32,897 nt of DNA. Origin: Nitrosopumilaceae archaeon (lineage in GTDB: Archaea > Thermoproteota > Nitrososphaeria > Nitrososphaerales > Nitrosopumilaceae). Position 1 is the stretch's first letter; each line of letters begins with the position of its first letter. The notes below the pieces were generated by a model, which was given only the letters and a program-made list of their open reading frames with translations, had not been told where the DNA came from and made no database searches. Made by a program: the position numbers and the translations under genes. Below, one piece after another: positions 5,689 through 28,308 of this stretch. Where the stretch lies: assembly GCA_021296175.1 (NCBI GenBank), contig JAGWAX010000005.1:1-32897 (forward strand), in the 5' to 3' direction.

Positions 5689-5891
5689 CGCCGTGGCGGC
5701 GGTCTGGCATGCCCGCAACGGCCCCCGCGCGGCTGATGTATGTGGCGAACCGCGCGCTGGAAAATTAACTAGTTATATCTCGGCGTGCCGCATGAAGGCG
5801 AGAAGGTTTGGTTTGCTGGCATGACGGCGTTTTGCGCGTACGGCGCGGTTCGGGCCGCGCCGCGTCAGGCACGGCAGTCGGCGGCCCCCGC
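5689..5891 (+). promoter_or_regulatory. Promoter and two short upstream ORFs chained by ATGA overlaps
   Basis: AT-rich boxes lie at 5761-5768 and 5772-5779. From 5792 an ATG opens a 10-codon ORF ('MKARRFGLLA') whose stop overlaps ATG 5821. That ATG opens a 24-codon ORF whose stop in turn overlaps ATG 5892, the chosen start of the large PEFG protein. Both junctions are ATGA. The chain could couple translation of the large gene to short leader ORFs, or be chance in GC-rich DNA. Confidence 0.4.
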
Positions 5892-7448
5892 ATGACTGCG
5901 CGCGGCCGCATCAAGGGCGCCGTACGGCGCCCGGCAGCCGGCCGGATGCTGCCGACTCCTGCAATGATTGTGGTGGCGGCCGCGGCAGTAGCACTGTACG
6001 TGGCAGTCGCGCCGCAGCCCCTTCCGGACGCGTCGCTTTTGCCATACGGCGGCGGCGCCCCACCCGCCCTTGGGTCGGCGCTGGGAGGCATGATGCTGCC
6101 CCCGGCATACGGGCACGGGCTGGGACTTGACCGCATACCGTCAGTCGGGGCCGGGGACCAAAAGATCATGATACACGTCGAGATGCCGCAGGAGCTTGCA
6201 GGCGGCTCGGCCGCGGAGCGGATCACCATCACTGCCACAGACGCCACGACACGCCAGCCCGCCGGGGACATCGTATACCTGCTTGGCGCATCGCACGCCA
6301 GCCAGACGGTATTCCGGGACTATTTCCTTGCATCTGACGGCGTGCTTGCGCTTGACGTGGAGGCCGCCCGCGGCGACAGTCCGGTCATAATCGGGGAGCG
6401 GGGGGGCGACGGCGGACTCCTTCCCGATGCATGGCGCCCCGCCGGCGACAGTCCGGTCCAGATAGAGGGATCTGCCTTTGGCCACGGAGGACTCTACACC
6501 TTTGATGTCGCAGTGCACGCCATAGGGGGGGACGTAGTTACAGAGCCCGGCACGTATTATGCCGATCTGAGCATCATAGAGTCCGCGACCCATGCGGAAA
6601 CTGGCTCTGACGGAAGCCCGGTCGCATTCGGCACGAAGTCCTACTTTGATCAGATAGAAAGCCTCGAGTACGACGCCGAGTCGGGCCGCATAACCGTCGT
6701 AATGCCTTTTGACTGGAGCGAGACCCGGATGTCGCACATACCGGTGGTTCACGTGGAGACGCACTTTCCAAAGGACTTTCTAGAGTTTCGCTCGCCGGGC
6801 TACGAGGGACACGCCAACGGCGTAAAGCTCTTCAGGGCGTCGGTCATCACGGACGACTACACGCTGGAAGACGAGAGGATAGTGCATTTCGTCCTCCTGC
6901 AGGATCACGTAAGGTTCGTCAAGAACGAGATGAAGAAGACCGGCGAGCCATTCCCGGACAGCATCACATTCACGCTCGCCATGGCCGAGGAGCTGGAGTT
7001 TCCGCTGGTCGCATACACGATAAGCGAGGAGTTTCTCATCAACCTGTCGTGGGATCCGCCTGAGATACTCCCCGGCGAGGAGACCACGTTCGTGTTTACC
7101 ATACGCGACGGGCAGACCGGCGAGCCGCTCCGGAACTCGGAGTACACGTTTGTAATAGAGCAGGACGGGGACGAGATACACCGCGCGTCGGGCCAGGCGC
7201 GAATCGGGGGACAGTTTGTAAAGTTCACCTTTGCCGAGGATCAGACGGGACCCACCACGATAAAGTTCGAGGACATACGCGGCACCGGGCAGGAGACCGA
7301 GTTTGGCATTCTGGTGGTGCCCGAGTTTGGGACGGTCACAGCAGCGATGCTTGCCGCGGCCGGCGCTGCCGCCGTCGCGCTGTATGCCGCGTCAAGGCAC
7401 AACGGACGCGCAAAACGCGCAGAACCATCACTGTTGTCTGCCGCGTAA
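5892..7448 (+). CDS. Large secreted surface protein with PEFG-CTERM anchor
   Basis: 518 residues from ATG 5892; an in-frame TTG at 5808 would add 28 residues without a better signal. Residues about 24-42 are a hydrophobic signal or anchor segment. The extracellular part holds beta-rich domains. The central motif is 'YDAESGRITVVMPFDWSE', followed by 'VVHVETHFPKDF' and 'ERIVHFVLLQDH', and a second Ig-like domain begins near 'LSWDPPEILPGEE'. The C-terminus is 'VVPEFG' (PEFG from about residue 477), a hydrophobic alanine-rich helix and a basic tail, which matches the PEFG-CTERM sorting signal known from Thaumarchaeota and processed by an archaeosortase. It is a paralogue of the proteins at 18344-20350, 20613-22352 and 25133-27427. 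Ligand and role are unknown. Confidence 0.85.
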   Translation: MTARGRIKGAVRRPAAGRMLPTPAMIVVAAAAVALYVAVAPQPLPDASLLPYGGGAPPALGSALGGMMLPPAYGHGLGLDRIPSVGAGDQKIMIHVEMPQELAGGSAAERITITATDATTRQPAGDIVYLLGASHASQTVFRDYFLASDGVLALDVEAARGDSPVIIGERGGDGGLLPDAWRPAGDSPVQIEGSAFGHGGLYTFDVAVHAIGGDVVTEPGTYYADLSIIESATHAETGSDGSPVAFGTKSYFDQIESLEYDAESGRITVVMPFDWSETRMSHIPVVHVETHFPKDFLEFRSPGYEGHANGVKLFRASVITDDYTLEDERIVHFVLLQDHVRFVKNEMKKTGEPFPDSITFTLAMAEELEFPLVAYTISEEFLINLSWDPPEILPGEETTFVFTIRDGQTGEPLRNSEYTFVIEQDGDEIHRASGQARIGGQFVKFTFAEDQTGPTTIKFEDIRGTGQETEFGILVVPEFGTVTAAMLAAAGAAAVALYAASRHNGRAKRAEPSLLSAA

Positions 7449-11902: not shown

Positions 11903-12925
11903 ATGGTATCCAAGGCGGTCTACGCGGGCATCGCGATCGCAGCGATAATCCCGCTTGCCATATTTGTCGTATACGGCACCACGATAGAGCCAGAACCAGC
12001 TTATGTGCAAGGCGCGGCTCTGGCAGATGAGCCAAGGATACTAGTATTGTCGTCATTTTATCCAATTGGGCAGTTTGTAAACAACGTGGGTGGGGACAGG
12101 ATCGAGTCGGCACTGGTTCTGCCGCCGGGCGCCGAGCCGCATGACTGGGAGCCCACCGTCAAGGACGTCCAGCGTATGAGGGGCGCAGACGTTGTCGTGA
12201 TTAATGGAATCGGGTTTGAGACGTGGGTGGAGAGTCTGGAAGACATCGGATTTGAGGGCGTCCTGATTGATACCAGCGAGGGAATAGAGGTGATGGAGAT
12301 AGCTGAGGGGACACGCAGCCACGGCCATGGAGGCGAAGAAGGCGACGGCCACGGCATGGCGGTTAGGGATGATGATGATGATGGCGACGACGGCTACGGA
12401 GACAAGATGCTCGGCGATCCCCACATATGGCTGAGTCCGGTTCACGCCCAGGTACAGGTACAGAATATCGCCGATGGGCTTTCAGAGGCCGATCCCAAAA
12501 ACGCTGACTACTATCAGGAAAACGCCTACAGGTACATCGCAGAGCTGCAGCAGCTGGACTCTGACATCAGGGCCGGGTTGGAGTCGTGCTCCCGTGAGTT
12601 TGTAGCGTACCACTATGCGTTTGCCTACTTTTCAGCAGAGTATGATCTGGTCCAGCACGTCATACTAAATTCGATGACCCCGCACGGCGAGATAGCCCCG
12701 AGAACGCTCCAGGATGTGATTGAGACTGCCAGAGCGCAGGGCCTAGACGTCATATTCACCGACGAGGCAGCCGATCCCAAGACAGCGCAGGTTGTTGCAG
12801 ACGAGATAGGCGGACAGGTCCTGATTTTATCGCCGCTTGAGATTGCACAGCCCGGCACTACATACATGTCCAAAATGTATGAAAACCTTGAGAGCCTCCA
12901 GACGGCGCTGTGCCGCGACCAGTAG
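11903..12925 (+). CDS. znuA: Zinc ABC transporter substrate-binding protein, copy 2
   Basis: 340 residues, a close paralogue of the protein at 8589 with most of its length aligned without gaps. The ligand histidines H80, H174 and H237 are kept. The acidic/His loop (about 138-163) has diverged: it contains 'HGHGGEEGDGHGM' followed by a short Asp run and lacks the 13-residue repeat of copy 1. Sequence similarity to copy 1 continues past the stop into what was the start of znuC, after which the transporter genes are missing. The protein probably works with the intact ZnuB/ZnuC of copy 1, perhaps with different affinity. Confidence 0.92.
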   Translation: MVSKAVYAGIAIAAIIPLAIFVVYGTTIEPEPAYVQGAALADEPRILVLSSFYPIGQFVNNVGGDRIESALVLPPGAEPHDWEPTVKDVQRMRGADVVVINGIGFETWVESLEDIGFEGVLIDTSEGIEVMEIAEGTRSHGHGGEEGDGHGMAVRDDDDDGDDGYGDKMLGDPHIWLSPVHAQVQVQNIADGLSEADPKNADYYQENAYRYIAELQQLDSDIRAGLESCSREFVAYHYAFAYFSAEYDLVQHVILNSMTPHGEIAPRTLQDVIETARAQGLDVIFTDEAADPKTAQVVADEIGGQVLILSPLEIAQPGTTYMSKMYENLESLQTALCRDQ

Positions 12926-13198
12926 GAGCTGGTGTGTGGACGGATGGCGCCTGTTCTTCCAGTATCTGGTCGCCGCCATAATACTTGGGGGCGCGGGTTT
13001 CAGAGCACGGCTGCCCTGTAGATCGGGATCTCCGCATCCCCCGTAATTGTTGGATGATGGGTGGGGGGGAGGGGAAAGAGAAAGATAATGCCGCCGTATT
13101 CCCTGTATGCCGCCCCTGTTGGAAGCACAGTTCTCCTGTCAGTATGACGCTTGGGGCCCCAATGGCGGCAGAGTCAACCGGATCGCTCGCCGGGCGGC
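12926..13198 (+). pseudogene. Remnant of duplicated znuC start and znuB 3' end
   Basis: The bases around the znuA2 stop still align with the first codons of znuC ('gtgccgcgaccagta' against 'atgccacgaccaata'). From about 12970 the DNA matches the 3' end of znuB: it shares 'gcgcgggtttcagagcacg', then the codons for 'MLGASMAAKSTG' appear as 'TLGAPMAAESTG', up to the CopC/CopD gene. All of znuC after its first codons and most of znuB are deleted, and the rest carries substitutions and frame changes. It cannot encode a permease. Confidence 0.8.
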
Positions 13199-16100
13199 AT
13201 ACTCATCAGCATGCCGTCCAGCCTCCTCCTGTCGCGCACGGCCTTCACATAGAACAATGAGGCTGCCATCACTCCCAAGGCCATCATGGGCGAGACGAGG
13301 TCCGCGTACTTGACCTCGTATGCGGGTTCCTCCTGCTGCCCCTGCGCGCTGTACATGCTGGGCCTCTCGGAGACGTACACGGCCCCTACCTTGCCTCCCC
13401 TCTGCTCTGCAAACCATATGTTTCCGTCGCCGTCGGACTCTACAAACTGCACAAACGACGTGGCGGTCGGAACCTCCACCTCGGCCATGTCCCCGTTGCG
13501 CGGGTCAATGACGCCTATGACGTCTATGGTGTGCTGCGCAAACCAGACGTTGCCGTACCTGTCAAAGGCCATTCCGAACGGAAGCGCGTCGGCGTCTTGC
13601 ACCTCGTACCTTGCAAGCGTGTCCAGCACGGGATCAAACCTTGCGACTGCAAGGCCCGTGTGCTCCGTGATCCAGAGGCCTCCCCCCTCCGACTCATCCT
13701 CAAAGAGGAGGGCCTCCGGTGCCTCGAGCGGCCGGTCGGGGCCGATTACCTGCGTCAGGCTGCCGTCGCCGGGATCAATGTACCCGACGGTCCCGGTTCC
13801 CGTGGCCGTATACCACATCATACCGCCGGGCCCCTCCGCCAGCGCGAACGGAAACGAGTCGCGGCCCGGGACGTGAACCTCGTCAAACTCTCCGGACTGC
13901 GTGTCATACCTTGCTATCAGCCCCTTGTTTATCACGGTGAACCACACGTCGCCGTTCCCGTCGGACTCGATAAAAAATGGCACGGCCCTCTCGTCCGTCG
14001 GATCCGACCGGGGCTGCCTTGACTCAAAGTCCGGCGTCTTTATGGTGGTTATGACATAACCGCCGCTGCCGCCGCTGCCCTGCTGCCTCGCGTACCCGAT
14101 CTGGCCGCCCCTGCTGTCGGTAAACCATATGCTGCGGTCCTTTTCGTTATATGTGACAAACGACGACGAGACGCCCTCAAACCCGTGGGGGGTAGCTGTG
14201 CCGGTCCCCGTGTCGACCTGCCACAGGCGCGGCGCCGACGCGTCGGTGAACCAGACGCTCCCCGCATGGTCGTACGCGGCATGAAGCGGACTTGTGCCAT
14301 TGGCAGGAAGCTCGTACTCTGCGAGCGTGACGTCCATGTCGTCCAGGCTGGGCCTCGCGGTTATGTCGAGGCGCACCGCCTCGTTTGCGCCCTGCGTGCG
14401 CTGGGCCTCTATCTCGACGAGCCACTGGCCCGAGAATGCAAGCGTGAGCACCCCCTGGTATGTGACGGAGTCCACTGCCGCTTCCCCCGCCTTGTCCCGC
14501 GTTACATCCCGCAGGTCAAGCTCGATGGGTGGTATGTCCCTGGCTGGGTTCGACGCCTTTGCCTTTATCCTGTCCAGATCGTCCAGAACCGTCTGATCCG
14601 CGCCCGAGGCCGTTATGATGATGCCGTTCTCCCCGGTGGCAAACGGGGTTATCTCTATGTCGAACCTCACGTTCTCGGAGAACTTGGTCACGGCAAACCC
14701 CGCATATGTCTGCTGCGCGTCGGCGCTCCGTATCTCGCCTGCGGGAAGCGTCCCGTTGGTGAGTACTGCCACGACCACCAAAAGTGTTATTCCGAGCGCC
14801 GCGTCTACCTTGAGCGTCCTGCTGAGCCTGCCGTATACCCGGGGCTTTCTTGATGCTGCAATGTCGGACTCCGCCCTCTTCTGTATGGTGTACTGGACGA
14901 GCCCGCCCATGCCCACCATGATCGACGCGATTGCGACCTTTAGTATGATTAGCCTGCCAAATACCGATTCGGTAATCATGCCCACATCACTCTCCAGCGT
15001 CCACAGCAGGGTGGGGCCCGTCACTATGACTATCCCCACCGATACGATGAATATGGCAGAGAACCTCGGGATTGCGGCCAGGCTGAGCCGGTCCCTAGCG
15101 TCGGGAAATCCCGAGAGTGCGGGCAGGAGTCCGAACACGATGTATATTATTCCACCTATCCATATTCCTGCCACTATGTTGTGGATATAGTCCAGGGTTA
15201 CCGCCTCGGCCGTCTCCGTCGCCGCGCCGTGCCCTGACATGCTTGACGTCAGCATGAGGGCCAGCGCGGCCGCCAGCATGGCCGCGTGCATCGTCTTTGG
15301 CCTCGACCTGCCCGTCCTGTTGGCGGCAAACCATATGCCAAACAGAGCCATGGTAATTATCATTCTTGCAAGCCATATCATGCCAAACTGGGTCTGGACT
15401 GTCTCCACGAGCCCGGACTCCAGCCTTGACATCTGTAGTGCGATTACCATCATGTCCGACGCCAGCACGAGCAGCAGGCCCGCCCCCGTAAGCTGCATGA
15501 ACCTCTTGTTGTGTTCTAGATCCATTGCCGACGATGTCGACGATTCGTCCCCGCCGCGCCGCTTGCCCCTGCCCGCTTCCCAGACTACGATTGCCGCCAC
15601 CGCGGCCCCCACTATTATGGTCTGGCCCACTATTCCTGGGAGCTCGGCGCCCGCCTCGGGCAGGAACAGCAGTTCTGTCGGCTTTTCCTGCAACAATAGC
15701 TCGGGATCTATCGTTGCCCCTCCCACGCCAAACAGAAAGACGCCGGGAACCAGGTGGCCGTCCACCTTTGAGAGCACCTTTGTAGAGACTGTGTAGACCC
15801 CATCCTCAAGGGGCGGCGTCGAGACAGCCAGCGCCAGATCCTTGTGGTAGTACGTGAGGTCCCTGTTGTCGATGCGCTCCCCCCTGTCGTTAATGACCTT
15901 GATCTCGCTGAACTCTATGTCCACCGATTCTGAAAAGTATACTATCACCTCGACTGTCCCGGCGGGCGCGTTCTGGGCCGTACTTGGGATGGTCTGGTCT
16001 ATGTATGGGTGGGCAGATGCGAGCGGAACCGCGGGCGACGCCAGCATGAGGGGTATTGCTAGGACCGCCAGCAGGATCATGACCCGCGCGGCCTTGGCGG

Positions 16101-16230
16101 CAGTGTTGGCAGTAGCCGGCGCCGATGACGGTGATGATGATGACGACGACGACAACGATGACGCGCGCAGTGGAGGGCTTGCCGCCGCGCCCCTTTTTGC
16201 GGCCTGCATAGGAAGTGACATGATCCGCAT
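13174..16230 (-). CDS. CopC-CopD copper protein fused to a Vgb/NHL-like beta-propeller
   Basis: 1018 residues. After a Ser-rich cytoplasmic N-terminus and a signal helix (about 50-72) comes a CopC domain beginning at H74 in 'AHPYID' and including H159 in 'VDGHLVPGVF'. A membrane segment near 200-216 is followed by a CopD domain (about 245-495) with 'MSGHGA' (H334) and 'YIHNIVAGIWIGG' (H350). Residues 500-630 form a beta-rich domain. Residues 640-965 contain seven 'GNVWFA/WFTD'-type blades like virginiamycin B lyase propellers. A last membrane helix lies near 978-1000. CopC binds copper outside the membrane and CopD is thought to carry it inward; the propeller's role is unknown. ATG 16230 fits a TATA box at 16254-16261. 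The 3' end overlaps the znuB remnant. Confidence 0.87.
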   Translation of the reverse strand: MRIMSLPMQAAKRGAAASPPLRASSLSSSSSSSPSSAPATANTAAKAARVMILLAVLAIPLMLASPAVPLASAHPYIDQTIPSTAQNAPAGTVEVIVYFSESVDIEFSEIKVINDRGERIDNRDLTYYHKDLALAVSTPPLEDGVYTVSTKVLSKVDGHLVPGVFLFGVGGATIDPELLLQEKPTELLFLPEAGAELPGIVGQTIIVGAAVAAIVVWEAGRGKRRGGDESSTSSAMDLEHNKRFMQLTGAGLLLVLASDMMVIALQMSRLESGLVETVQTQFGMIWLARMIITMALFGIWFAANRTGRSRPKTMHAAMLAAALALMLTSSMSGHGAATETAEAVTLDYIHNIVAGIWIGGIIYIVFGLLPALSGFPDARDRLSLAAIPRFSAIFIVSVGIVIVTGPTLLWTLESDVGMITESVFGRLIILKVAIASIMVGMGGLVQYTIQKRAESDIAASRKPRVYGRLSRTLKVDAALGITLLVVVAVLTNGTLPAGEIRSADAQQTYAGFAVTKFSENVRFDIEITPFATGENGIIITASGADQTVLDDLDRIKAKASNPARDIPPIELDLRDVTRDKAGEAAVDSVTYQGVLTLAFSGQWLVEIEAQRTQGANEAVRLDITARPSLDDMDVTLAEYELPANGTSPLHAAYDHAGSVWFTDASAPRLWQVDTGTGTATPHGFEGVSSSFVTYNEKDRSIWFTDSRGGQIGYARQQGSGGSGGYVITTIKTPDFESRQPRSDPTDERAVPFFIESDGNGDVWFTVINKGLIARYDTQSGEFDEVHVPGRDSFPFALAEGPGGMMWYTATGTGTVGYIDPGDGSLTQVIGPDRPLEAPEALLFEDESEGGGLWITEHTGLAVARFDPVLDTLARYEVQDADALPFGMAFDRYGNVWFAQHTIDVIGVIDPRNGDMAEVEVPTATSFVQFVESDGDGNIWFAEQRGGKVGAVYVSERPSMYSAQGQQEEPAYEVKYADLVSPMMALGVMAASLFYVKAVRDRRRLDGMLMSMPPGERSG

Positions 16231-17356: not shown

Positions 17357-18298
17357 TTATCTGTTTTGGGGGTTTTCTGTGTGAAGTCTTGCACGTACCA
17401 GTTTGGTGCACTTCAGGATTGCAAACGCTGGAATTCCAACATACATTCCCAGGTTCAGCAGGACAACTGATATGCCGTATCCGAGCATCTCCGTCTCTGT
17501 GTCAATGTCTGCATGGTTTAGCAGCGAGAGTGTGGAGAGCATTGGAGTTAGTGCCACCTTGACTGTTTCCCTGAACGCCGGATTCTCTCTTTCGAGATCT
17601 GCCACCGCCGGGGAGAATGTATAGTATATGCTGTTGAATCCGGACATAAATGCCGTACCGGACTCTGTTGCAAGTACCGTGTTGTCTCTCAGTTCTCTAA
17701 GTTGCTGAACTTGTGGTGCAAGCTCGGAGCCAAATGCCGCAGTTGCAATAAGGCAACCACCGGTCTCCTCGTCTGCCGCCGACGCGTCATCCATCATGGT
17801 GTCGTCCATCATCTCCTCGTCGTCGCCCATCATGGTATCATCCATCATGGTGTCGTCCATCATCTCCTCGTCGTCGCCCATCATGGTATCGTCATCACCA
17901 TGTGTTGCTTCTACTATGATCTGGCCGATCATCCACGGATGAACAAGGCAGTAGTGACTGTATTCTCCCTCTTCATCTATTGTGAACTCGTACGTGGCCC
18001 CGACCAATACCAAGCCGCTGTCAAACACGCCGGTCATGCCGTCTGCTGGAGAGCCTGATGTCAGTGTGTGTGCTGCATTGTCTGTGTTTGAGAAAGTTAT
18101 CGTGGTTCCTGGAGCTACTGTCAGTATGGGCATGTTGTAACAACCCTCGTCGGTCTGCTCACATCCTGCGGTGGCCGACCCTGCAAGGGGCTCGAGCACC
18201 GTATTCGGATGATCTGCAAATACCGGGGGGGTAGTCGCAACCATTCCTGCCACAAGTACGGACAGTAAAAAGAACGAACTGATTGTTCTAGTCTTCAT
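17357..18298 (-). CDS. Cupredoxin (plastocyanin-like) with CFI-box C-terminal domain
   Basis: 313 residues. Signal peptide 1-29; cupredoxin domain about 30-131 with type-1 copper ligands H77 ('NAAHTL'), C117, H120 and M123 ('YCLVHPWMIG'). C46 and C53 may form a disulfide. An acidic linker follows with two copies of a 17-residue unit 'TMMGDDEEMMDDTMMDD' (138-171). Then comes a CFI-box C-terminal domain beginning 'GGCLIATAAFGSELAP' (C182), with 'LRELRDN' and a hydrophobic segment (about 272-296). The cupredoxin likely carries electrons or copper at the cell surface, tethered by the C-terminal domain. Such blue copper proteins are abundant in ammonia-oxidising archaea. A TATA box is centred about 25 bases before ATG 18298. 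Confidence 0.9.
   Translation of the reverse strand: MKTRTISSFFLLSVLVAGMVATTPPVFADHPNTVLEPLAGSATAGCEQTDEGCYNMPILTVAPGTTITFSNTDNAAHTLTSGSPADGMTGVFDSGLVLVGATYEFTIDEEGEYSHYCLVHPWMIGQIIVEATHGDDDTMMGDDEEMMDDTMMDDTMMGDDEEMMDDTMMDDASAADEETGGCLIATAAFGSELAPQVQQLRELRDNTVLATESGTAFMSGFNSIYYTFSPAVADLERENPAFRETVKVALTPMLSTLSLLNHADIDTETEMLGYGISVVLLNLGMYVGIPAFAILKCTKLVRARLHTENPQNR
17786..17887 (-). repeat. 51-bp tandem duplication coding the Met/Asp linker
   Basis: Two adjacent 51-base units (17786-17836 and 17837-17887) differ at only one base. Each encodes the 17-residue acidic Met-rich unit of the cupredoxin linker. Near identity points to recent expansion or ongoing homogenisation. Confidence 0.85.
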
Positions 18299-18343: not shown

Positions 18344-20350
18344 TCACATATGAGTGACCGATCTGTGGTTTACATGCTGCCGCCTTTCTACCACCCGCAT
18401 GCTCGTGTCTGGCAGTCTGTCGTCTCTCCACCTCTTTAATCTCTCACACGCTATGACTGTGACTGCAACCGGGAGTGCCACGTAGACTGCCCCGTTCAGC
18501 GCGATTATGGAGATGCCGTATGCCAGCATGTCGTATTCCGTCCCTATACTGGTGCCGTCAAGCAACATGAGCGATACCAGCATGGGTGTCAGTGCGATTC
18601 TGGTCATGTCACGCAGCGTTTGGTGCTCCCTTTGAAGGTCGGCCACTGCAGGGGAGAACGTATAGTATATGGAGTTGAATCCGGACATGAATGCCGTGCC
18701 GTATGCGGTTCTCAGTATGGTATTGTCCCTCAGCTCCCTGAGCTGCTGTACCTGCGGGGCAAGCTCGGAGCCGTATGCGGCAGTCGCAATGAGGCAGCCG
18801 CCGCCCTCTTCCTCATTGTAGGACGTTTCTCCCGCCCCGTTCGCACCTGCCGTTACGCCTATCGTACCGTCGTCTATGACGGCGCCGCCTGATACCCTGT
18901 CTATTACGATAGGCATGGAGGTTCTGGCGCGCTCGTTGCCCTGCAGCCTCTCAAAGTTGAGGTATGCTATCCCGGAGACGCCCTGGGGCATCTCAAACTC
19001 CGCCACGTTTGTGGGGTCGTCCCTCGAGTCCGTACTGACGCCTGACTGCTCAAAGATGGTACTGCCGTCCTCCGTTGTTACGGAAAAGTGGTACTCTGCT
19101 GCAATGGGCGCGCCCTTCAAAAAGACGTCTGTTACCTCGAAGATTATCCTGGCGTTCTGGCCGGACCTCAGCTCCTCTGGTTCCCACGAGGCGAATATCC
19201 GGAACTGGCCGTTCTCCGTCACTGACGCTATGCGCGTATGGTTGGTGTCGGGCCTGATTACAAAGTTCATGATGTCGTCCTCCTGGCCGCCGCCGCCGTC
19301 TCGTATGCTGTAGAGCTGCTCCTGAGGTACGATAAAGTGCACTATTCTCTCCCCCGTGAAAAAGTCGTCAATCAGCACCGTCTCCTCTGGTAGCCTTACG
19401 TCGTTTATGTAGAGCTCGAATCCCGACAGCAGGAGGTCCCCATACGTGTCCGGTATAGAGAGCTCCTCGTGCACCACATATGACTGGTCTATGTTAGAGT
19501 CGCTCCACTCAAACGGCATAGAGTACCTGATCTCCCTTGTCTTGGAGTCGTACTCAAAACCGGCTATCTTGTCGTAGTATGTGATGACCCTGATGTACTG
19601 GTCCCCAAAGTTGGGATCCTTTACGCCGTACGTGGTTATCATCGGGATGGATATGCCAGAGTCGTACCCTATCGGGGAGGCCAGGCGTTCTGAATAGTCG
19701 CCTGCCGTAACTATGGAAATGTCAAACTTGTAGAGTCCACCGTCTGCAAGGCTTGGCCCTGACACGCGGACGTTCCTGCTCTCGACTCCGAGCAGGTACG
19801 AGACAATGTCGTACTGATCGCCTCCCTCTCCCCCGTCGCGCACTGTTATCTCATCGCCCGCGCTGTCGTCTGATGCAAAGTTAAAGACGAGAAACCCGTT
19901 ATCGGCCCTGAATTCCCGCTCAAAGAGGAACTTGTTTCCAAGCTCGGCCCTGATGTAAAACGTCACGTCGCGGAGCGTAACTTTCGAGTCAAAGTCGACG
20001 AGAGCTACCCCTATCTGCAGGTCTTCGCCCGGCACGATCCCGGCCGGTGGCCGTCCCGTCGTCTCCGGCGGTGGGGGGGCAGACGATGATATCTCCAGGG
20101 CAACCTGCCGCCCGTTCAGTTCTACCGGGGGGAACGTCTCGCTCGACGTGCCGTGCCCTGCGGCAGGCTGTATGCCGGATGCGGCCATCGCCGTAACGCA
20201 TACTGCCGTCAAGACAAGGACTGCGGCAAGGGATGCGTACGGCGATGGTTGTGGTTGTTGTCGTTGGGCCGGATGCCGCTGTCGTAGACATCCTCCTGCC
20301 GCGAGTATCGGCCCCCCCGTTGTTGCAGCTGTGGTTGTCATGCTTGCCAT
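18344..20350 (-). CDS. Large secreted surface protein with CFI-box C-terminal domain
   Basis: 668 residues from ATG 20350, three bases after the stop of a small upstream ORF. A long cytoplasmic N-terminus precedes a signal/anchor helix (about 40-60). The extracellular core has the family motifs: 'GLYKFDISI' (206), 'FEYDSKTREIRYSMPFEWSD' (265-284), 'YVVHEELSIP' (291), 'GERIVHFIVPQ' (333), and a second beta domain from about 385 ('ASWEPEELRSGQ'). The C-terminal CFI-box starts 'GGGCLIATAAYGSELAP' (C519) and ends with hydrophobic helices (about 607-635) and a basic tail. The core is shared with the proteins at 5892, 20613 and 25133. Function unknown; probably an envelope component. Confidence 0.85.
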   Translation of the reverse strand: MASMTTTAATTGGPILAAGGCLRQRHPAQRQQPQPSPYASLAAVLVLTAVCVTAMAASGIQPAAGHGTSSETFPPVELNGRQVALEISSSAPPPPETTGRPPAGIVPGEDLQIGVALVDFDSKVTLRDVTFYIRAELGNKFLFEREFRADNGFLVFNFASDDSAGDEITVRDGGEGGDQYDIVSYLLGVESRNVRVSGPSLADGGLYKFDISIVTAGDYSERLASPIGYDSGISIPMITTYGVKDPNFGDQYIRVITYYDKIAGFEYDSKTREIRYSMPFEWSDSNIDQSYVVHEELSIPDTYGDLLLSGFELYINDVRLPEETVLIDDFFTGERIVHFIVPQEQLYSIRDGGGGQEDDIMNFVIRPDTNHTRIASVTENGQFRIFASWEPEELRSGQNARIIFEVTDVFLKGAPIAAEYHFSVTTEDGSTIFEQSGVSTDSRDDPTNVAEFEMPQGVSGIAYLNFERLQGNERARTSMPIVIDRVSGGAVIDDGTIGVTAGANGAGETSYNEEEGGGCLIATAAYGSELAPQVQQLRELRDNTILRTAYGTAFMSGFNSIYYTFSPAVADLQREHQTLRDMTRIALTPMLVSLMLLDGTSIGTEYDMLAYGISIIALNGAVYVALPVAVTVIACERLKRWRDDRLPDTSMRVVERRQHVNHRSVTHM

Positions 20351-20612: not shown

Positions 20613-22352
20613 TCAGGTCACGCGTATTATTCCCTCTTTTATCAGGTACTGCAGGCCTGACACAAAGGACCCGTCGTCTATTGCGCCCTCGGCCCACCAG
20701 CCCGCGTTGGTCTTTATCCACGACGGTATCTCTGCCGCCGCCGCACCATCCGTAGTGCCGTCTAGGCCCTGGTCGTCGCCGCCATCGGCGACTGGCACCA
20801 CGAGTACTCCGCTCTGTATCAGGTACTGTATGCCGGTCACAAACGTGGCGTCGTCTATTGCGCCCTCGGCCCACCAGCCCGCGTTGGTCTTTATCCACGA
20901 CGGTATCTCTGCCGCCTCCGTGCTTGGGGGAGTGCCGTCTGCGGGCGCCCCGGGCCCGATCTCTATGAGCCCGGATCCGATTCCCGAATACGTGGGGTCG
21001 TAGTCAAGGCCGGTCCCGTATACAATCACATCCATCCTGATCAGTCCCTCAGACGGTATCTTGATGTTCTGCACGTCTATGCCTTCCAGCGAGGCTATCC
21101 CCGTATTGAGCGGGTCGTTTCCAGAAAACCTTGCTATCTGACTGCCCGACTCGTCGCTCACTATGTATCCGTACCAGACGTCCTTGATCAGCTTGTTGTT
21201 CTGATTCAGGAAAGTGAACTCGAACGGGATCTCATCGCCCGCGCCGTACTGCCCGTCCCACTCTATGATTACGGTCGTCGGGGCTTTCTCCTGCATGGTC
21301 TCAAGATCCACCAGGTAAAACTCCACGGAGCTGACATCCACCTCCTCGATGGGAACGAGCTTCAGGTTCATGTTCTTGCTCTCGAACCTGTCGTCCTCCA
21401 TGCTCTCGCTGATCCTTTGCAGCTCGTTGTTGGTTATCAGGAAGTGGATCACGTTTGTGTCCTCGTCCCAGTAGGGATCATTCAGCAGGGCCCGCTGATC
21501 CACCTCCACCCCGTTTACGTACCCCTTGAACTGCTTGCCCTCGGCATACGGCACAAAGTCCTTGGGGATCCTGATCTCCTCGTGCACCACCTGGACTAGG
21601 TCGACATAGTCCGGCGTCCAGTCAAACGCCATGTCGAACGTGATGGAGTTGTCTGACGGTTCAAATTCAAAGTTCTTTACGTCGTCGTAGTACGTCTTGA
21701 TTATTACGGGAATCTCCTCGGCGTGGGCGGCCTGTATTGCAAAGTTCTGCTCCTGGGCCACGCTGACAAACGTGTCGTAGCTCAGCCTCTCTGCAAGCTG
21801 CACTCTGGGGCTGGTCGCGCCTTCGATGTCGACGCGTACGTGGTACAGCCCCCCCTTCTCGAATATGGGCCCTGTTATGGTGGGCCTCGCGCATACGTCG
21901 TAGTTGTCGCCGGTGCACGGCTCCCCGTACACGAACAGGGCGCCGGGCGAGCTGACGTGCTCCGAGCCGCCGTACTTGCTGCATAGTCGCGGCTCCGCCT
22001 GGTCGCAGTCCGCATTGGGGCGGATCTCCACGTCGAGGCTCCCGTCTGGATCGTAAAAGAGGTTCCTTGCAAGCAGCTCGCCGCCGCGCCACATCTCTAT
22101 CCTGTACGTGACCTTTTCGAGCGTGGTATCTGTCAGCGTGTCAAAAAACCTGACCTTCATGTTTATGTCGTCGATGTCCCCTATCGTGATGTCCGATGGC
22201 GTGAGGTCTGTGCGTACGGTCACCTCCATTCCCGAAAAGCTGATGGGTGGTGCCTGGTCGCCTCCGAGTCCGTGCCCAGAGACCGTCTGGACGGCAGCCG
22301 GAATTATGGCAATGGCGACTATGGTCGCTAGCAGCGCAAGTCTATTGTACAA
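20613..22352 (-). CDS. Large secreted surface protein with two C-terminal GWW repeats
   Basis: 579 residues from TTG 22352, chosen because TATA 'tatattta' (22373-22380) is about 25 bases upstream; GTG 22370 is an alternative adding six residues. A signal helix ends near 'TVSGHG'. The extracellular core shares family motifs: '[17 protein letters not shown]', '[12 protein letters not shown]' and '[11 protein letters not shown]'. Pairs of cysteines occur in an insertion near residues 110-150. The C-terminus has two repeats of about 38 residues beginning '[19 protein letters not shown]', with no PEFG or CFI-box anchor. The repeat is common in thaumarchaeal surface proteins and may bind the cell envelope, which is inference. 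Divergent from the gene at 22479. Confidence 0.85.
20673..20916 (-). repeat. Two identical 67-bp segments inside the GWW repeats
   Basis: Bases 20673-20739 and 20850-20916 are identical over 67 bases, while the DNA between them differs. They encode the '[12 protein letters not shown]' core. Identity at third codon positions suggests recent duplication or gene conversion. Confidence 0.85.
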
Positions 22353-22478
22353 TATTCCAAATAGTTTCACACTATATTTAAAGATCAAAGGGACGCATGC
22401 ATGCGTCCCCGTCCATGCGCGGTCACGCCTGTCGTCGGGCCCCGCGTTGGAACGTTTTTTATCTGTGTAACCCGTATC
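22353..22478. promoter_or_regulatory. Divergent promoters with a 20-bp perfect palindrome
   Basis: The leftward TATA is 'tatattta' (22373-22380). The rightward TATA is 'ttttttatc' (about 22455-22463), placed about 26 bases before ATG 22485. Between them, at 22390-22409, stands 'gggacgcatgcatgcgtccc', a perfect 20-bp palindrome whose edge is 10 bases upstream of the leftward TATA. That position suits an activator or shared regulator of the two GWW-repeat genes. Confidence 0.65.
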
Positions 22479-23228
22479 ATGTTTATGAAGGCAGTCTTGG
22501 TTGCTCTGGTGCTTGCCGCTGCATGCGTGCTTGCCGCCGGACATCAGGCGCATGCCGAGACCCAGACCTTGTCCACCGAGCAGGGAGCCATAGACGTCCA
22601 GCTCGTGTATGACGACATGATAATGCCGGGCGAGGAGACCAAGATCAAGGTGGACTTTCTGAATCCCGTAACCGGTAGGACTCAGGAGCACATAGACTAT
22701 ACGATTACGATTACCAGAGATGGGGAGCAGGTATTCGGACCTACCAACCTCATACATACGTCTCCCGGCACCATAACTCTCCCGGTACAGTTCCAGAATG
22801 CCGGCGTCCATTCCTTGGGCTTTACGGTGGAGGGGATACTCTTCCAGCCCATTCCCGCCGAGGCCGTATCATTTGAGATACCTGTGGGGGAGGATGTATC
22901 GGCACCCGCAGCGCCAGACGTGGCGGTGATCCCGCCGTGGGTCAAGAGCAACGCCGGGTGGTGGGCCGACGGCCTGATAGACGATGCCACGTTTGTATCC
23001 GGAATCGAGTATCTGATACGGAGCGGCATACTGGTCGTTCCCGTCGCCGATACTGCCAGTGACCCGGGTAACGGTGCGGACGGCAGTGGGGGAGAGGACG
23101 CGCCGGGGCCGCAGATCCCGCCGTGGGTCAAGAGCAACGCCGGGTGGTGGGCCGACGGCCTGATAGACGATGCCACGTTCGTGAGCGCCCTGCAGTTTCT
23201 GATTACGGCCGGAATCATACGGGTCTGA
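22479..23228 (+). CDS. Secreted protein with one beta domain and two GWW repeats
   Basis: 249 residues from ATG 22479, or 247 from ATG 22485, which fits the TATA box better. Residues 1-26 are a signal peptide ending '[10 protein letters not shown]'. An Ig-like domain of about 110 residues ('[20 protein letters not shown]') is followed by two repeats beginning '[19 protein letters not shown]', ending '[13 protein letters not shown]'. There is no membrane anchor, so the repeats are the only candidate for attachment. It is divergent from the larger GWW protein and may be co-regulated with it. Two 65-base segments (22929-22993 and 23115-23179) inside the repeats are identical. Function unknown. 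Confidence 0.85.
22929..23179 (+). repeat. Two identical 65-bp segments inside the GWW repeats
   Basis: Bases 22929-22993 and 23115-23179 are identical and encode '[16 protein letters not shown]' plus the next five residues. The spacer between them is unrelated. As in the neighbouring gene, the two copies inside a gene are more alike than copies between genes. Confidence 0.85.
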
Positions 23229-23347: not shown

Positions 23348-23758
23348 ATGCCTACTCTGTATATGACAGCCTACGTCCAGTCGCTACGCTCCAACCTGAC
23401 CAGCCTGTTTCTGGTTGCCGTCCTGGGAATCGCGCTGATGCTCTCGGTTCCGGTGGCGTTTCCGCACCTGATGCACGGGTTCCACGCGGCCCACATACTG
23501 CTTCACACGGGCGGCATGATACTCGCGCTCTTCATCACGACGCTGGCCGCCGTCTCATACCGCACGCTGCGCTCAAGACGCCTGCTGCTGACCACAATTG
23601 CATTTGCAAACTTTATGTTTACAGAGGCCCTGCTGCTTGCCTACGCGCTAGAGCCCTCGCTTATCCACTTGGGGGACGCGCACATATCCGAGGTGGGGCA
23701 CCTGCTGATGTTTGCCACGCTGGGACTGCTGGCTCTGGGGGTGCTGAGAAATGACTGA
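23348..23758 (+). CDS. Small membrane protein with a histidine-lined helix
   Basis: 136 residues from ATG 23348. ATG 23363 (131 residues) is better placed, about 26 bases after TATA 'cttaaatta', and may be the true start. Four hydrophobic segments lie near 19-38, 45-70, 79-101 and 115-133. Histidines H40, H43, H46, H49 and H53 follow 3-4 residue spacing along one helical face at a membrane boundary, and H107, H112 and H118 cluster near the last helix. This suggests heme or metal binding. The stop overlaps the start of a winged-helix regulator by 8 bases, so the two are made together. I do not recognise the family. Confidence 0.75.
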   Translation: MPTLYMTAYVQSLRSNLTSLFLVAVLGIALMLSVPVAFPHLMHGFHAAHILLHTGGMILALFITTLAAVSYRTLRSRRLLLTTIAFANFMFTEALLLAYALEPSLIHLGDAHISEVGHLLMFATLGLLALGVLRND

Positions 23759-24275
23759 CAAGTCAGATACGATACTAGAGGCCATAGAGTCAAACCCCGG
23801 CATACACTTTAGGGGAATCATGCGCAAGACCGGGCTCATGAACGGTGTGCTGTCGTACCATCTTGCCAAGCTGGAGCGCAACAACCTGATAATTGCAAGG
23901 CGCCGGCCGCGCACCGCCCGGTTCTATTCCGTGCGGATACCAGAGTCGGATCATGCCGTAATCAGGGCACTGCGCAGGCCCACCCCCCGCGCGCTGCTGA
24001 TCGCGCTTTTGCACGAGGATCCCGAAAACGAGAACGGGCTCTCGTTTGTAGAGTTGGTAAAGAGGGCGGAAAGATCCCCCTCGACTGTGTCACTGTATCT
24101 GTCGCAGCTGGTAAGGGAGAGCTTGGTGGACATGCGTCCGGCCAATTTCAAAAAGCACTACCAGCTCCGGGATCGGGAGCGCATAGACCGCCTGCTTGAG
24201 GATCACGATCCGAGCCTGGTTGGCAGGTACGCCTCGAACTTTGAGGACATGATAAACCCGCTGGGCTCCTCCTAG
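23751..24275 (+). CDS. Double winged-helix transcriptional regulator
   Basis: 174 residues. The first winged helix (about 5-62) has 'NPGIHFRGIMRKTGL' and 'VLSYHLAKLERNNLI', with a wing 'RRPRTARFY'. The second (about 78-150) has 'LSFVELVKRAERSPSTVSLYLSQL'. Both recognition helices look intact. Archaeal tandem winged-helix proteins of this kind bind DNA. Its start lies inside the end of the membrane protein gene, implying a sensor-regulator pair in which the membrane partner controls the DNA-binding protein. Ligand and targets are unknown. Confidence 0.85.
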   Translation: MTDKSDTILEAIESNPGIHFRGIMRKTGLMNGVLSYHLAKLERNNLIIARRRPRTARFYSVRIPESDHAVIRALRRPTPRALLIALLHEDPENENGLSFVELVKRAERSPSTVSLYLSQLVRESLVDMRPANFKKHYQLRDRERIDRLLEDHDPSLVGRYASNFEDMINPLGSS

Positions 24276-24980: not shown

Positions 24981-25136
24981 ATGGCAGGTCTGCAGGACAA
25001 AACAATTCTGGCTGGCGCTACTGCTGCGAAAATATTGATTATAGGCGCCGCCGCGATCGTTCCGGCGCTGTTGCTGGACACGGGCGCCTCTGCAGGCGAC
25101 GACAGTTCTGAGATATCCGTGGAGGTTCCGTCATGA
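24981..25136 (+). CDS. 51-residue secreted or membrane peptide coupled to the next gene
   Basis: ATG 24981 opens 51 codons: 'MAGLQDKTILAGATAAK', then a hydrophobic segment 'ILIIGAAAIVPALLL', then an acidic tail ending 'SVEVPS'. It looks like a signal peptide or single membrane helix followed by about 20 extracellular residues. The TATA spacing supports the start. The stop TGA overlaps the ATG of the 764-residue gene (ATGA), so translation of the two is linked. It may be a leader ORF or a true small partner of the surface protein. No family is recognised. Confidence 0.6.
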   Translation: MAGLQDKTILAGATAAKILIIGAAAIVPALLLDTGASAGDDSSEISVEVPS

Positions 25137-27427
25137 TGTGGCCGGCTGGCGGCCGGCATGGGCCCGGACGTAATGCAGCGCTATCATTAGTGCTTGTGGT
25201 GGCGCTTGTGTCGGCGTCCGCATTATTTGTGCATGGCGGCATGTTTGAGGAGGCTCATGCGGGAAGCTCTGGCTCCGCTGACAGTGAACTCTTGCTGATA
25301 AACGGCGACTACCACCTGCTCGAGATCTCGACTGACCCCGCGATATTGAGCGGGGATGAGGAGCATGTCGCAATGACCATATCCCTGATGAACGTGGACG
25401 CGGAGCCTGCCATCCCGGTGTCCGGAGTAGAGTACGGCCTGACGTTTGCCGATGGCAGTGACAGGGACGTCACGCTTGCATCCCTTGACGCGTACTCTCC
25501 TGGTGAAAGCCTGAGCATACTGATACGGCCTTCCGCGGATGCACACGTCGAGGTATCCGGCGAGAGCGCCAAGGAGGGATCTTGGCTGGCATCCGGCGAC
25601 TCTCCGGCCACGTTGAAGGCCCCTGTATTTTTGGAGGGTGGCATAGTCTACATACATGCGACAGTCAAGTCCATTGACTCGCAGCCCGTGTCCGCGGACG
25701 GGGATTCCACCTTCGAGGTGATGCTCAGCATGGGCCAGTACGTGCCGCTTGCAGTCGAGATTGACGGCATACCGTCGGATCTCACATTTGCCACTTATTT
25801 TGACAAGGTCGACAAGTTCTCGTACGACGAGCAGGCCAGAAGCGTCTCAGTAGAGATGCCGTTTGTCTGGACCGAGGAGTACATCGAGGCGGCATCATTT
25901 ATCCACGCCGAGTTCTTCATACCAAAATCAATTGATCTCTTTGAGAGACACGACATACTGCTTGCAGTAAACGGAATGGACTATTTCGGCACGGTGGACC
26001 GCTCCGGCAGCGACGAGACGGTGGTGCACTACCTGCTGTCCTCTGGCAAGATGCTTGAGATGATGCAGGGCCTGGAACCCGAGTATATTGACAGGATGGT
26101 GTTTGAGATAAGGGTCGGCGCCGAGCGCCAGCACCAGATAAGTGGTGACGCTTCAATCGAGTCGGGAGACGCGGTAATAGCGAGGTCGACTGGGGGTGCT
26201 GACGGGAACTATGACGTGCGCGTGTCAGCCGAGCCTGCAGGCATGCTGCATCCGGGAAACGAACTGACGCTGTCACTTGAGATTCGCCACGAGGGCTCTG
26301 ATGACCATATTCCAGGCGCCGCATACGACATGAGACTGTCGCTAGGCGGCGATGTCGTGCTGTCCGAGGCCGGACGCGAGGCGCCCGAGGGGGGCGACCG
26401 CATTACGGCCACGTTTGATGAGACGGGGATTGCAGTGCTCGAGGTGGCAAACATAGAGGGAACCGCCTCGTCTGCTAGGATCTCCTTTGTGATCAGCGAG
26501 CCGCACGACATGTCCGCGATGAGCGGCGGCGGCATGTCCTCCCACGGCTCCATGGACATGGCGGACCCTACAATGATGGGATACGACGAAATGGTAGTTG
26601 GGCATGGCAAACTCTTGTCTGCGCACGATTCGATGATGGAAGAGCATCGCAGCATGATGAGGATGATGGTAGAGGACGAGACGATGATGAAGCATGACGG
26701 CATGATGACGGAGCACGATGAGAGGATGATGAAGCATGACGGCATGATGACGGAGCACTATGACATGATGCTGATGATGCCGGACAACGGTATGGTTCCA
26801 GAGGACAAGATGGAGGCGTATACTGTCATGATGGAGGAGTTCGCCGCCATAATGGAAGAGCACGCCTCGATGATGGAAGAGCGCCGCGACATGATGGAGA
26901 GGCACCACGAGATGATGATGATGATGATGGAGGGCCAGGCGGAGGCCGACGATCCGGTGACCGCAGGCAGTAGTGACGGCGGCGACGCCGGCCCGGACAG
27001 TGGCCTGGTGGATAGCGACACCGGCGGCTGCCTGATCGCGACTGCCGCATTTGGCTCCGAGCTTGCCCCGCAGGTTCAGCAGCTTAGGGAGCTGAGGGAC
27101 AACACCGTACTTGCAACCTCGTCCGGAACCGCATTCATGTCGGGCTTCAATTCCATATACTATACGTTCTCCCCGTCTGTGGCGGACATTCAGAGGGAGA
27201 ACCCGGCAATTAGGGAAGCAACCAAGATTCTGCTGACGCCAATGCTGTCGTCACTCTCGCTGTTGGAGCATGCGGGCATCGACACGGAATCGGAGATGTT
27301 GGGGTACGGCATGTCGGTAATACTCCTGAACCTTGGAATGTACGTGGGCATTCCCGCGTTTGCGGCCGTGGGATGCGCGCGGCTGGCACGGACCCGGATG
27401 CGCTCACGTGCCGGGGCCCGGCCCTGA
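25133..27427 (+). CDS. Met/His-rich surface protein with CFI-box C-terminal domain
   Basis: 764 residues. Signal helix about 15-33. The family core includes 'FSYDEQARSVSVEMPFVWTE' (229-248), 'IHAEFFIPKS' and 'ETVVHYLLSSG', then a second beta domain (about 360-455). Residues 458-600 hold about 40 Met and 12 His, with repeats such as 'MMKHDGMMTEH' (518-528 and 532-542) and a run of six Met. Such Met/His clusters bind Cu(I)/Cu(II) in CopA-, PcoA- and Ctr-type proteins, so copper binding is likely. The CFI-box begins 'GGCLIATAAFGSELAP' (C633) and ends with hydrophobic helices and an Arg-rich tail. It may be a surface copper store or donor. Start ATG 25133 overlaps the small upstream ORF. Confidence 0.85.
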   Translation: MMWPAGGRHGPGRNAALSLVLVVALVSASALFVHGGMFEEAHAGSSGSADSELLLINGDYHLLEISTDPAILSGDEEHVAMTISLMNVDAEPAIPVSGVEYGLTFADGSDRDVTLASLDAYSPGESLSILIRPSADAHVEVSGESAKEGSWLASGDSPATLKAPVFLEGGIVYIHATVKSIDSQPVSADGDSTFEVMLSMGQYVPLAVEIDGIPSDLTFATYFDKVDKFSYDEQARSVSVEMPFVWTEEYIEAASFIHAEFFIPKSIDLFERHDILLAVNGMDYFGTVDRSGSDETVVHYLLSSGKMLEMMQGLEPEYIDRMVFEIRVGAERQHQISGDASIESGDAVIARSTGGADGNYDVRVSAEPAGMLHPGNELTLSLEIRHEGSDDHIPGAAYDMRLSLGGDVVLSEAGREAPEGGDRITATFDETGIAVLEVANIEGTASSARISFVISEPHDMSAMSGGGMSSHGSMDMADPTMMGYDEMVVGHGKLLSAHDSMMEEHRSMMRMMVEDETMMKHDGMMTEHDERMMKHDGMMTEHYDMMLMMPDNGMVPEDKMEAYTVMMEEFAAIMEEHASMMEERRDMMERHHEMMMMMMEGQAEADDPVTAGSSDGGDAGPDSGLVDSDTGGCLIATAAFGSELAPQVQQLRELRDNTVLATSSGTAFMSGFNSIYYTFSPSVADIQRENPAIREATKILLTPMLSSLSLLEHAGIDTESEMLGYGMSVILLNLGMYVGIPAFAAVGCARLARTRMRSRAGARP
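26684..26767 (+). repeat. 42-bp tandem repeat coding a 14-residue Met/His unit
   Basis: Two adjacent units of 42 bases encode 'MMKHDGMMTEHDER' and 'MMKHDGMMTEHYDM'. The first 33 bases of each are identical. They lie inside a longer region of imperfect Met/His repeats. Confidence 0.8.
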
Positions 27428-27537: not shown

Positions 27538-28308
27538 ATGATTCCGCTAAAGGACGAGAACCCGCATCCGCCGGGATTCCGGCCCGTCATGACGATCATA
27601 CTGATAATTGCAAACGCTGTCGTCTTCGTATTTGAGGTGCTGTATACGGGCCAGTTCTTTGACTTTACAAACCGCAACGCGTTTGCGATGTTTTACAGCT
27701 GGGGGGCCGTGCCCAACTGCGTCACGGGCGCCAGCGAGTCGCTGATAAACTTCGGGGCAGGCGCCGTGTCGATACCGTGCCCCGACATGCAGTATACGTC
27801 ACTGCTCAGCTCCATATTCATGCACGGCGGACTCGTGCACTTTGGCGGCAACATGCTGTTTCTGTGGGTCTTTGGGGACAACATAGAGCAAAAGTTCGGC
27901 AAGTTCAAGTTCCTGGGCATATACCTGATGTGGGGGGTCGTGGCGGGACTGGTCCACATATACGGCGACGCCACAAGCCCGATTCCGGCAGTCGGCGCGT
28001 CGGGCGCCATATCGGGGATAATGGGGGCGTACCTGGTGCTGTTCCCGAGGGTCCGCATTCTCACGTTTGTGGGCTATTTCATGCTGCACATACAGGCAAA
28101 GTGGTTCATGCCGTTCTGGCTCATCATGCAGAACCTGCTCCCGTACCTGGTGGGGGGGTTCGGCGTGGCAGGCGGCGGCGTCGCGTACCTTGCGCACATC
28201 GGGGGGTTTGCAATCGGGCTGATCACGGCGTACGCGTACAAGAGGGCGTTTGATCCGCCCCCGCTGTACGGGACCAGATACGGGTACAGGCCGGACTATT
28301 ACGAATAA
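27538..28308 (+). CDS. Rhomboid-family intramembrane serine protease
   Basis: 256 residues with six or more membrane segments. The catalytic Ser is S155 in 'VGASGAISG' and the catalytic His H220 in 'LAHIGGF'. The oxyanion-region motif is 'HGGLVHFGGNMLFLWVFGD' (96-114) with N105. All residues needed for activity are present. Rhomboids cut membrane proteins within or near their helices. Given the many single-span surface proteins encoded nearby, these may be substrates, but that is inference. ATG 27538 follows a TATA-like 'cttattta' by about 30 bases. Confidence 0.93.
   Translation: MIPLKDENPHPPGFRPVMTIILIIANAVVFVFEVLYTGQFFDFTNRNAFAMFYSWGAVPNCVTGASESLINFGAGAVSIPCPDMQYTSLLSSIFMHGGLVHFGGNMLFLWVFGDNIEQKFGKFKFLGIYLMWGVVAGLVHIYGDATSPIPAVGASGAISGIMGAYLVLFPRVRILTFVGYFMLHIQAKWFMPFWLIMQNLLPYLVGGFGVAGGGVAYLAHIGGFAIGLITAYAYKRAFDPPPLYGTRYGYRPDYYE

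Follow-up and report, generated by a model that had tools for sequence, protein, structure and literature searches.

One gene of the window, as the whole 32,897-nt stretch of DNA from a Nitrosopumilaceae archaeon (contig JAGWAX010000005.1) is called here, codes for a protein named MH_CFI which, judging from its sequence and from those of its relatives, is on balance probably a cell-surface copper-handling protein with copper buffering or storage as its main role. As part of this same reading it is suggested that, in one GC-rich clade, a Met/His-rich stretch has replaced a plastocyanin-like domain and a CFI-box has replaced the WIKNNAGWWA repeats. The locus represents a natural experiment, in which one surface protein in one gene cluster carries either a one-copper plastocyanin domain or a Met/His stretch. 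It also hints at a role in copper handling for a family of unannotated surface proteins with three domains, four copies of which lie in the window. Ammonia-oxidizing archaea (AOA) depend heavily on copper.

Architecture of MH_CFI

MH_CFI consists of a signal peptide, three β-sandwich domains, a Met/His-rich region predicted to be helical, a CFI-box and a C-terminal membrane span, in this order (Table 1). Judged by eye, signal-peptide cleavage is possible between residues 43 and 44, after AHA (AHA/G). The signal peptide, the CFI-box and the C-terminal span with its Arg-rich tail support extracytoplasmic anchoring, as the initial annotation had proposed for a surface protein, and the CFI-box named there scores above the curated cut-off of NF041770, which places MH_CFI among the CFI-box-CTERM proteins. 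The N-terminal part was modelled as three β-sandwich domains (pLDDT 82, pTM 0.68), for which Foldseek returned generic Ig-like folds, namely complement and α-2-macroglobulin domains, and also the soluble domain of PmoD (6cpd, TMt 0.59). These matches, PmoD included, are not counted as evidence for copper binding.

The whole protein matched no Pfam family, the Met/His stretch was recognised by none of the Pfam and NCBIfam profile families, and only weak, implausible matches to it were found among PDB sequences with phmmer. As for a type-1 copper site (H...C..H..M), MH_CFI of the window does not match PF00127, and loci L055 and L056 lack such a site behind the N-terminal part. A frame or strand artefact as the source of MH_CFI was rejected, since all 764 codons lie in one open frame, which is kept in the relative from RHO2_bin_25 (G055, hereafter RHO2) and, as two pieces, in that from p16x60bins.31 (G119, hereafter p16).

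Table 1 Features of MH_CFI and of the surrounding gene cluster in the window.
Feature	Position	Strand	Remarks
N-terminal fold, fourth copy	5808..7448	+	
CopC-CopD fused to Vgb-lyase-like β-propeller	13174..16230	-	PF04234, PF05425, PF24684
Plastocyanin-like domain, Met/Asp-rich linker (MMDD repeats) and CFI-box	17357..18298	-	PF00127 27 bits; NF041770
Paralog of the N-terminal part with CFI-box	18344..20350	-	NF041770, synteny
Paralog of the N-terminal part with WIKxNAGWWA C-terminal repeats	20613..22811	-	first ~150 codons overlap opposite gene
Winged-helix regulator (HVO_0163-type/MarR/ArsR-like)	23751..24275	+	member of conserved cluster
MH_CFI gene	25133..27427	+	764 aa; one open frame
Signal peptide of MH_CFI (predicted)	25133..25261	+	hydrophobic core residues 15-33 (hydropathy)
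Conserved N-terminal part, residues 36-458	25238..26506	+	also in plastocyanin-bearing orthologs
Met/His-rich region, residues 458-600	26504..26932	+	in-frame translation
42-bp tandem DNA repeat	26678..26774	+	2.3 copies, 90% match; encodes MMKHDGMMTEHDER
CFI-box C-terminal domain, residues 633-704	27029..27244	+	NF041770, 71 bits, cut-off 40
C-terminal membrane span, residues 729-747	27317..27373	+	Arg-rich tail after span (hydropathy)
Rhomboid protease gene	27538..28308	+	PF01694 104.8 bits; directly downstream of MH_CFI

Composition and spacing of the Met/His stretch

The stretch contains 41 Met, 12 His and no Cys in 143 aa (29% Met), which agrees with the initial annotation, where about 40 Met and 12 His had been counted on the correct coordinates. 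The rest of MH_CFI has 3.4% Met and 2.4% His, so that the binomial chance for the stretch is 2e-26 for Met and 2e-4 for His. The repeat MMKHDGMMTEH, to which the annotation had drawn attention, is present twice, and the spacing goes beyond what composition-preserving shuffles give as expectation (H-x6-H 5 vs 0.7, HxxMM 8 vs 0.6, HxxM 9 vs 2.8 and MxxH 8 vs 2.8, observed vs expected), with many His residues on a 7-residue ladder and Met 3–4 residues off. HxxMxxxHxxM, known as motif 2 of SilE (PMC5008109), occurs twice in the window stretch (0.04 expected) and seven times in that of RHO2 (0.08 expected), where 41 Met and 18 His include 13 cases of H-x6-H against an expected 1.6.

Part of this regularity comes from tandem DNA repeats of 21 and 42 bp: besides the 42-bp repeat listed in Table 1, there are weaker 21-bp arrays at 26827-26917 within the Met/His region, and the RHO2 stretch has a 21-bp array of its own. 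Nevertheless, a plain microsatellite was rejected as the source of the stretch because the His ladder continues where no DNA array is detected, as in RHO2, where two runs of six His with exact 7-residue spacing lie outside the 21-bp array.

AlphaFold places helices at residues 484–547 and 557–601 of the window protein with low confidence (mean pLDDT 50.8). Met and His cluster on one helix face in RHO2 (p<0.0005) and in the window helix 557–601 (p=0.009), and only weakly in helix 484–547 (p=0.35 at 100 degrees); the ordered ligands probably lie on a helix. The long predicted helices, the tandem repeats in the underlying DNA and the neighbouring linkers, which are likewise repetitive and of variable composition, could also be those of a helical spacer or coiled coil raising the N-terminal domains off the membrane, with Met and His being incidental to repeat expansion. 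Such a spacer is improbable given the persistence of the RHO2 His ladder outside its array, the conservation of His and Met above other residues and the copper domain that low-GC orthologs have at that position (both described below), and, on reasoning from the heptad, Met at a/b and His at e are unlike the classical a/d coiled-coil pattern.

Plastocyanin domain at the same position in orthologs

The N-terminal 420 residues are common to relatives in 22 other genomes. The whole-protein search gave one full-length relative (G055, 77%) and eleven matching only residues from about 33 to 459, which continue past ~459 into a plastocyanin-like domain (in L010 scoring 32.8 bits with PF00127, above the cut-off) and then into WIKNNAGWWA repeats. 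A named scan of one genome per species across 84,980 species resulted in 17 loci, two of which are of the Met/His type, namely JAPPIP010000109 of RHO2_bin_25, which is also the contig of G055, and JAJEHG010000068 of p16x60bins.31, likewise that of G119. In the other 15, the type-1 copper site is complete (AHTVTSG...YYC.LHPWM). When 250 genomes of the family were searched with a profile, the domain was present in 23 genomes from 2 of 22 genera, and the loci newly read from this search, including G171 and G600 of the second genus, also carry the plastocyanin domain.

With duplicates between the searches merged and G109 left out as its sequence ends earlier, 19 distinct orthologs outside the clade of the window could be read beyond this point. 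They come from two genera, and in every one of them the position of residue 458 is followed at once by a type-1 copper domain (H...C..H..M). The Met/His form is limited to three GC-rich genomes, the window, RHO2_bin_25 and p16x60bins.31, which form one clade with a support of 100/100. By comparison, the form with plastocyanin is widely distributed. It is simpler to take this form as ancestral, but the tree is unrooted and the branch is long. Orthologs from Nitrosopumilus (L010-L020, L057-L071) resemble MH_CFI in the N-terminal part (33–44% identity), in the locus and in having a copper-handling domain at the same position, but they possess one structured type-1 copper site and WIKNNAGWWA repeats where MH_CFI has a multi-ligand Met/His stretch and a CFI-box.

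The link to copper drawn in the initial annotation gains from this type-1 copper domain at the same position in the orthologs and from the CopC-CopD and plastocyanin genes nearby. Since both the position and the chemistry of the Met/His ligands support it well, copper binding of some kind by the stretch is likely.

RHO2 has a second copy of the gene, of the plastocyanin type, on another contig (L122, L123, L124; G055:C105), interrupted by a transposase-bearing insertion and masked sequence, so the Met/His form coexists there with a broken plastocyanin form. In the tree, the 5′ piece of this copy joins the Met/His clade with 99/99 support but along a long branch, whereas the 3′ piece is placed outside it.

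Conservation and distribution of the Met/His form

In p16, where the repeats break the assembly, the gene lies in two parts at contig ends inside the Met/His stretch. Its identity with the window amounts to 11/12 for His, 33/41 for Met and 71/125 for the remaining residues, so that Met/His sites taken together (44/53) are better conserved than the rest (Fisher p=0.001). In RHO2 the stretch is almost unalignable with that of the window, and the N-terminal part is 92% identical. While the stretch varies in sequence and length, its Met/His composition and spacing persist, which points to selection on the ligands.

A similarity search over the genus with the stretch alone found only G119 besides the window and missed RHO2 because the stretch diverges quickly. 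The DNA pattern MMxxHxxMM, searched in 398 genomes of the phylum, mostly matched Met-rich secreted proteins of the Gln/Asn type or occurred by chance, and the architecture of MH_CFI was found among these matches in the window only. Other CFI-boxes of this and related genomes mostly have 0–5 Met within 120 residues upstream, the exceptions being the Met/Asp- or Met/Glu-rich linkers of plastocyanin-CFI proteins, and among the CFI-box proteins compared the Met/His stretch is combined with a CFI-box only in the clade of the window. The initial annotation knew of no description of this combination; literature searches gave no match for 'CFI-box' and none for Met/His-rich copper proteins of Nitrosopumilus.

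Copper gene cluster

Upstream of the MH_CFI-type gene, the window, RHO2 and low-GC congeners share the order of a plastocyanin gene, two paralogs, a membrane protein and an HTH regulator, with CopC-CopD further upstream where the fetched sequence extends that far (L043, L045). The gap between the HTH gene and the MH_CFI-type gene is about 8–9 kb in the low-GC congeners and RHO2 and less than 1 kb in the window. A rhomboid gene also lies directly downstream of the plastocyanin-type ortholog in L046, so the two represent the same locus. The rhomboid is a possible processing partner of the CFI-box protein, yet it is present also where the CFI-box is absent; it shows weak similarity to rhombosortase (23.8 bits, cut-off 84).

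The N-terminal fold has four copies in the whole genome, all inside the window, and the true start of the paralog at 20613..22811 is probably further downstream. Genes of the cluster swap their C-terminal modules. In CFI2 a CFI-box takes the place of the WIK repeats of its low-GC relative, and the plastocyanin gene of the window carries a fused CFI-box, which in L045/L046 is found on another gene. The C-terminal repeats of the paralog just mentioned, of the gene at 22401-23228 (+) and of L010-L020 have no Pfam match and exchange with the CFI-box in the same genes. The linker of the plastocyanin-CFI protein varies strongly across species (MMDD, VMEE, AQATADAE). The gene with CopC-CopD codes for a three-part copper protein, whose virginiamycin-B-lyase-like propeller scores 134.7 bits with PF24684 and which has close relatives in RHO2 (L043) and p16 (L054). 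Upstream of the copper cluster, genes for two ZnuA-type metal-binding proteins lie at 8589-9638 and 11903-12925 (+), with two further ORFs between them.

A promoter motif published for copper limitation in terrestrial AOA shows no enrichment in the window (2 matches with 3 mismatches vs 0.75 expected). None of the window genes tested was identified as an amo gene; that this organism oxidises ammonia is inferred from its kin.

Proposed role and alternatives

The export signal would take MH_CFI across the membrane, where the C-terminal span would keep it. In the stretch, thioether and imidazole ligands stand 3, 4 and 7 residues apart, presumably on a helix, and by analogy with SilE/PcoE they could bind several Cu(I), perhaps also Cu(II) or Ag(I). 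The stretch would thus act as a high-capacity copper buffer or store, swapping metal with CopC-CopD and plastocyanin from the same cluster, and ammonia monooxygenase and other cuproenzymes would be the final users. MH_CFI might equally serve as a buffer or chaperone, in acquisition or in detoxification; a store rather than a relay or detoxification is what we infer, from findings that suit delivery and detoxification too.

In detoxification the stretch would soak up excess Cu(I) at the surface, like SilE/PcoE in resistance operons; the chemistry and the motif are the same as in these proteins, and sponge hosts may concentrate metals, which would count in favour of such a role. CopC and CopD families are classically resistance genes too (PMC7785015), but in Nitrososphaera viennensis, an ammonia-oxidizing archaeon of another genus, the CopC/D cluster responds to a shortage of copper, as would be expected of acquisition rather than detoxification: two CopC/D genes belong there to a 25-gene cluster in which 15 genes rise under copper limitation (PMC7785015). 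Tests of the cluster genes also revealed no efflux gene, and detoxification is regarded as unlikely.

Met-rich surface segments can scavenge oxidants, and surface Met might be sacrificially oxidised by host- or nitrification-derived oxidants. Although CopC/D genes are upregulated under oxidative stress in two marine AOA (PMC7785015), such a sink leaves both the ordered His ladder and the replacement of a copper domain unexplained, no methionine sulfoxide reductase was identified among the annotated cluster genes, and the idea is very doubtful. The preference of SilE for Ag(I) (PMC5008109) and the presence of two ZnuA-like binding-protein genes in the window would suit another soft or borderline metal (Ag, Zn, Ni) as the true ligand. 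However, the plastocyanin domain of the orthologs and the nearby CopC-CopD indicate copper, making a different metal highly improbable. Moreover, 41 thioethers disfavour Zn and Ni.

Nitrosopumilaceae associated with sponges have larger genomes of higher GC content than their free-living kin (PMC11812461). This pattern is matched by the genome of the window (1.78 Mb, about 57% GC at the locus), from which its label of a symbiont would follow; the three GC-rich AOA of the clade are probably sponge-dwelling, and 'RHO2' may denote a sponge sample. Only tentatively can a domain-for-domain switch from a redox-type single-copper domain to a high-capacity Met/His reservoir, i.e. from relay to store, be proposed, by which a single, probably sponge-symbiotic lineage would have adapted to its copper supply. 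Because some low-GC plastocyanin forms may be sponge-derived as well (isolate PfA), the switch may not be a matter of habitat alone.

Comparison with known systems

The initial annotation had compared the stretch with copper-binding clusters of bacterial periplasmic proteins and of eukaryotic Ctr proteins; the latter have three membrane spans and a Ctr domain, whereas MH_CFI has one C-terminal span and no Pfam match, and SilE/PcoE, with an i/i+3/i+4 His-Met pattern on a predicted helix, are closer. Both SilE/PcoE and MH_CFI are rich in Met and His at i/i+3/i+4, contain HxxMxxxHxxM, are likely helical there and are encoded near cop genes. They differ in that SilE/PcoE are small soluble periplasmic proteins, whereas MH_CFI is an archaeal protein of 764 aa with three N-terminal β-sandwich domains and a C-terminal membrane span, a stretch denser in Met and only predicted metal binding. 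SilE/PcoE are disordered in the metal-free state and become helical when Ag(I) or Cu(I) binds; for the stretch of MH_CFI, helices are predicted with low confidence. No match of MH_CFI to the SilE/PcoE family was obtained in NCBIfam, Pfam or among PDB sequences, so by sequence the stretch resembles SilE/PcoE in motif and belongs to none of the metal-binding families searched. CopM of Synechocystis is a copper-binding protein encoded beside copper-response genes (PMC4335983), and its architecture is unlike that of MH_CFI.

A copper store of the Csp type has been proposed in Nitrososphaera viennensis (PMC7785015). Csp proteins (DUF326) are Cys-rich helical bundles, in contrast to the Cys-free stretch, with which they share the proposed role of a multi-copper store. 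A search of 95 genomes of the genus, that of the window included, gave no DUF326 protein, which leaves room for another copper store, although with a model of 21 positions this absence is weak evidence.

Other Met-rich exported proteins occur in related archaea. Congeners and further genomes of the family (L073-L086, several genomes) encode secreted, unannotated proteins rich in Met, Gln and Asn, with up to about 30% Met, e.g. MMNDPELRQQMMDMMMQHQ. In another family of the order (L091, G066), a 245-aa Met/His-rich exported protein weakly resembles PepSY in one part and has a tail of tandem MMGGHDKMMGPEMGMGG.
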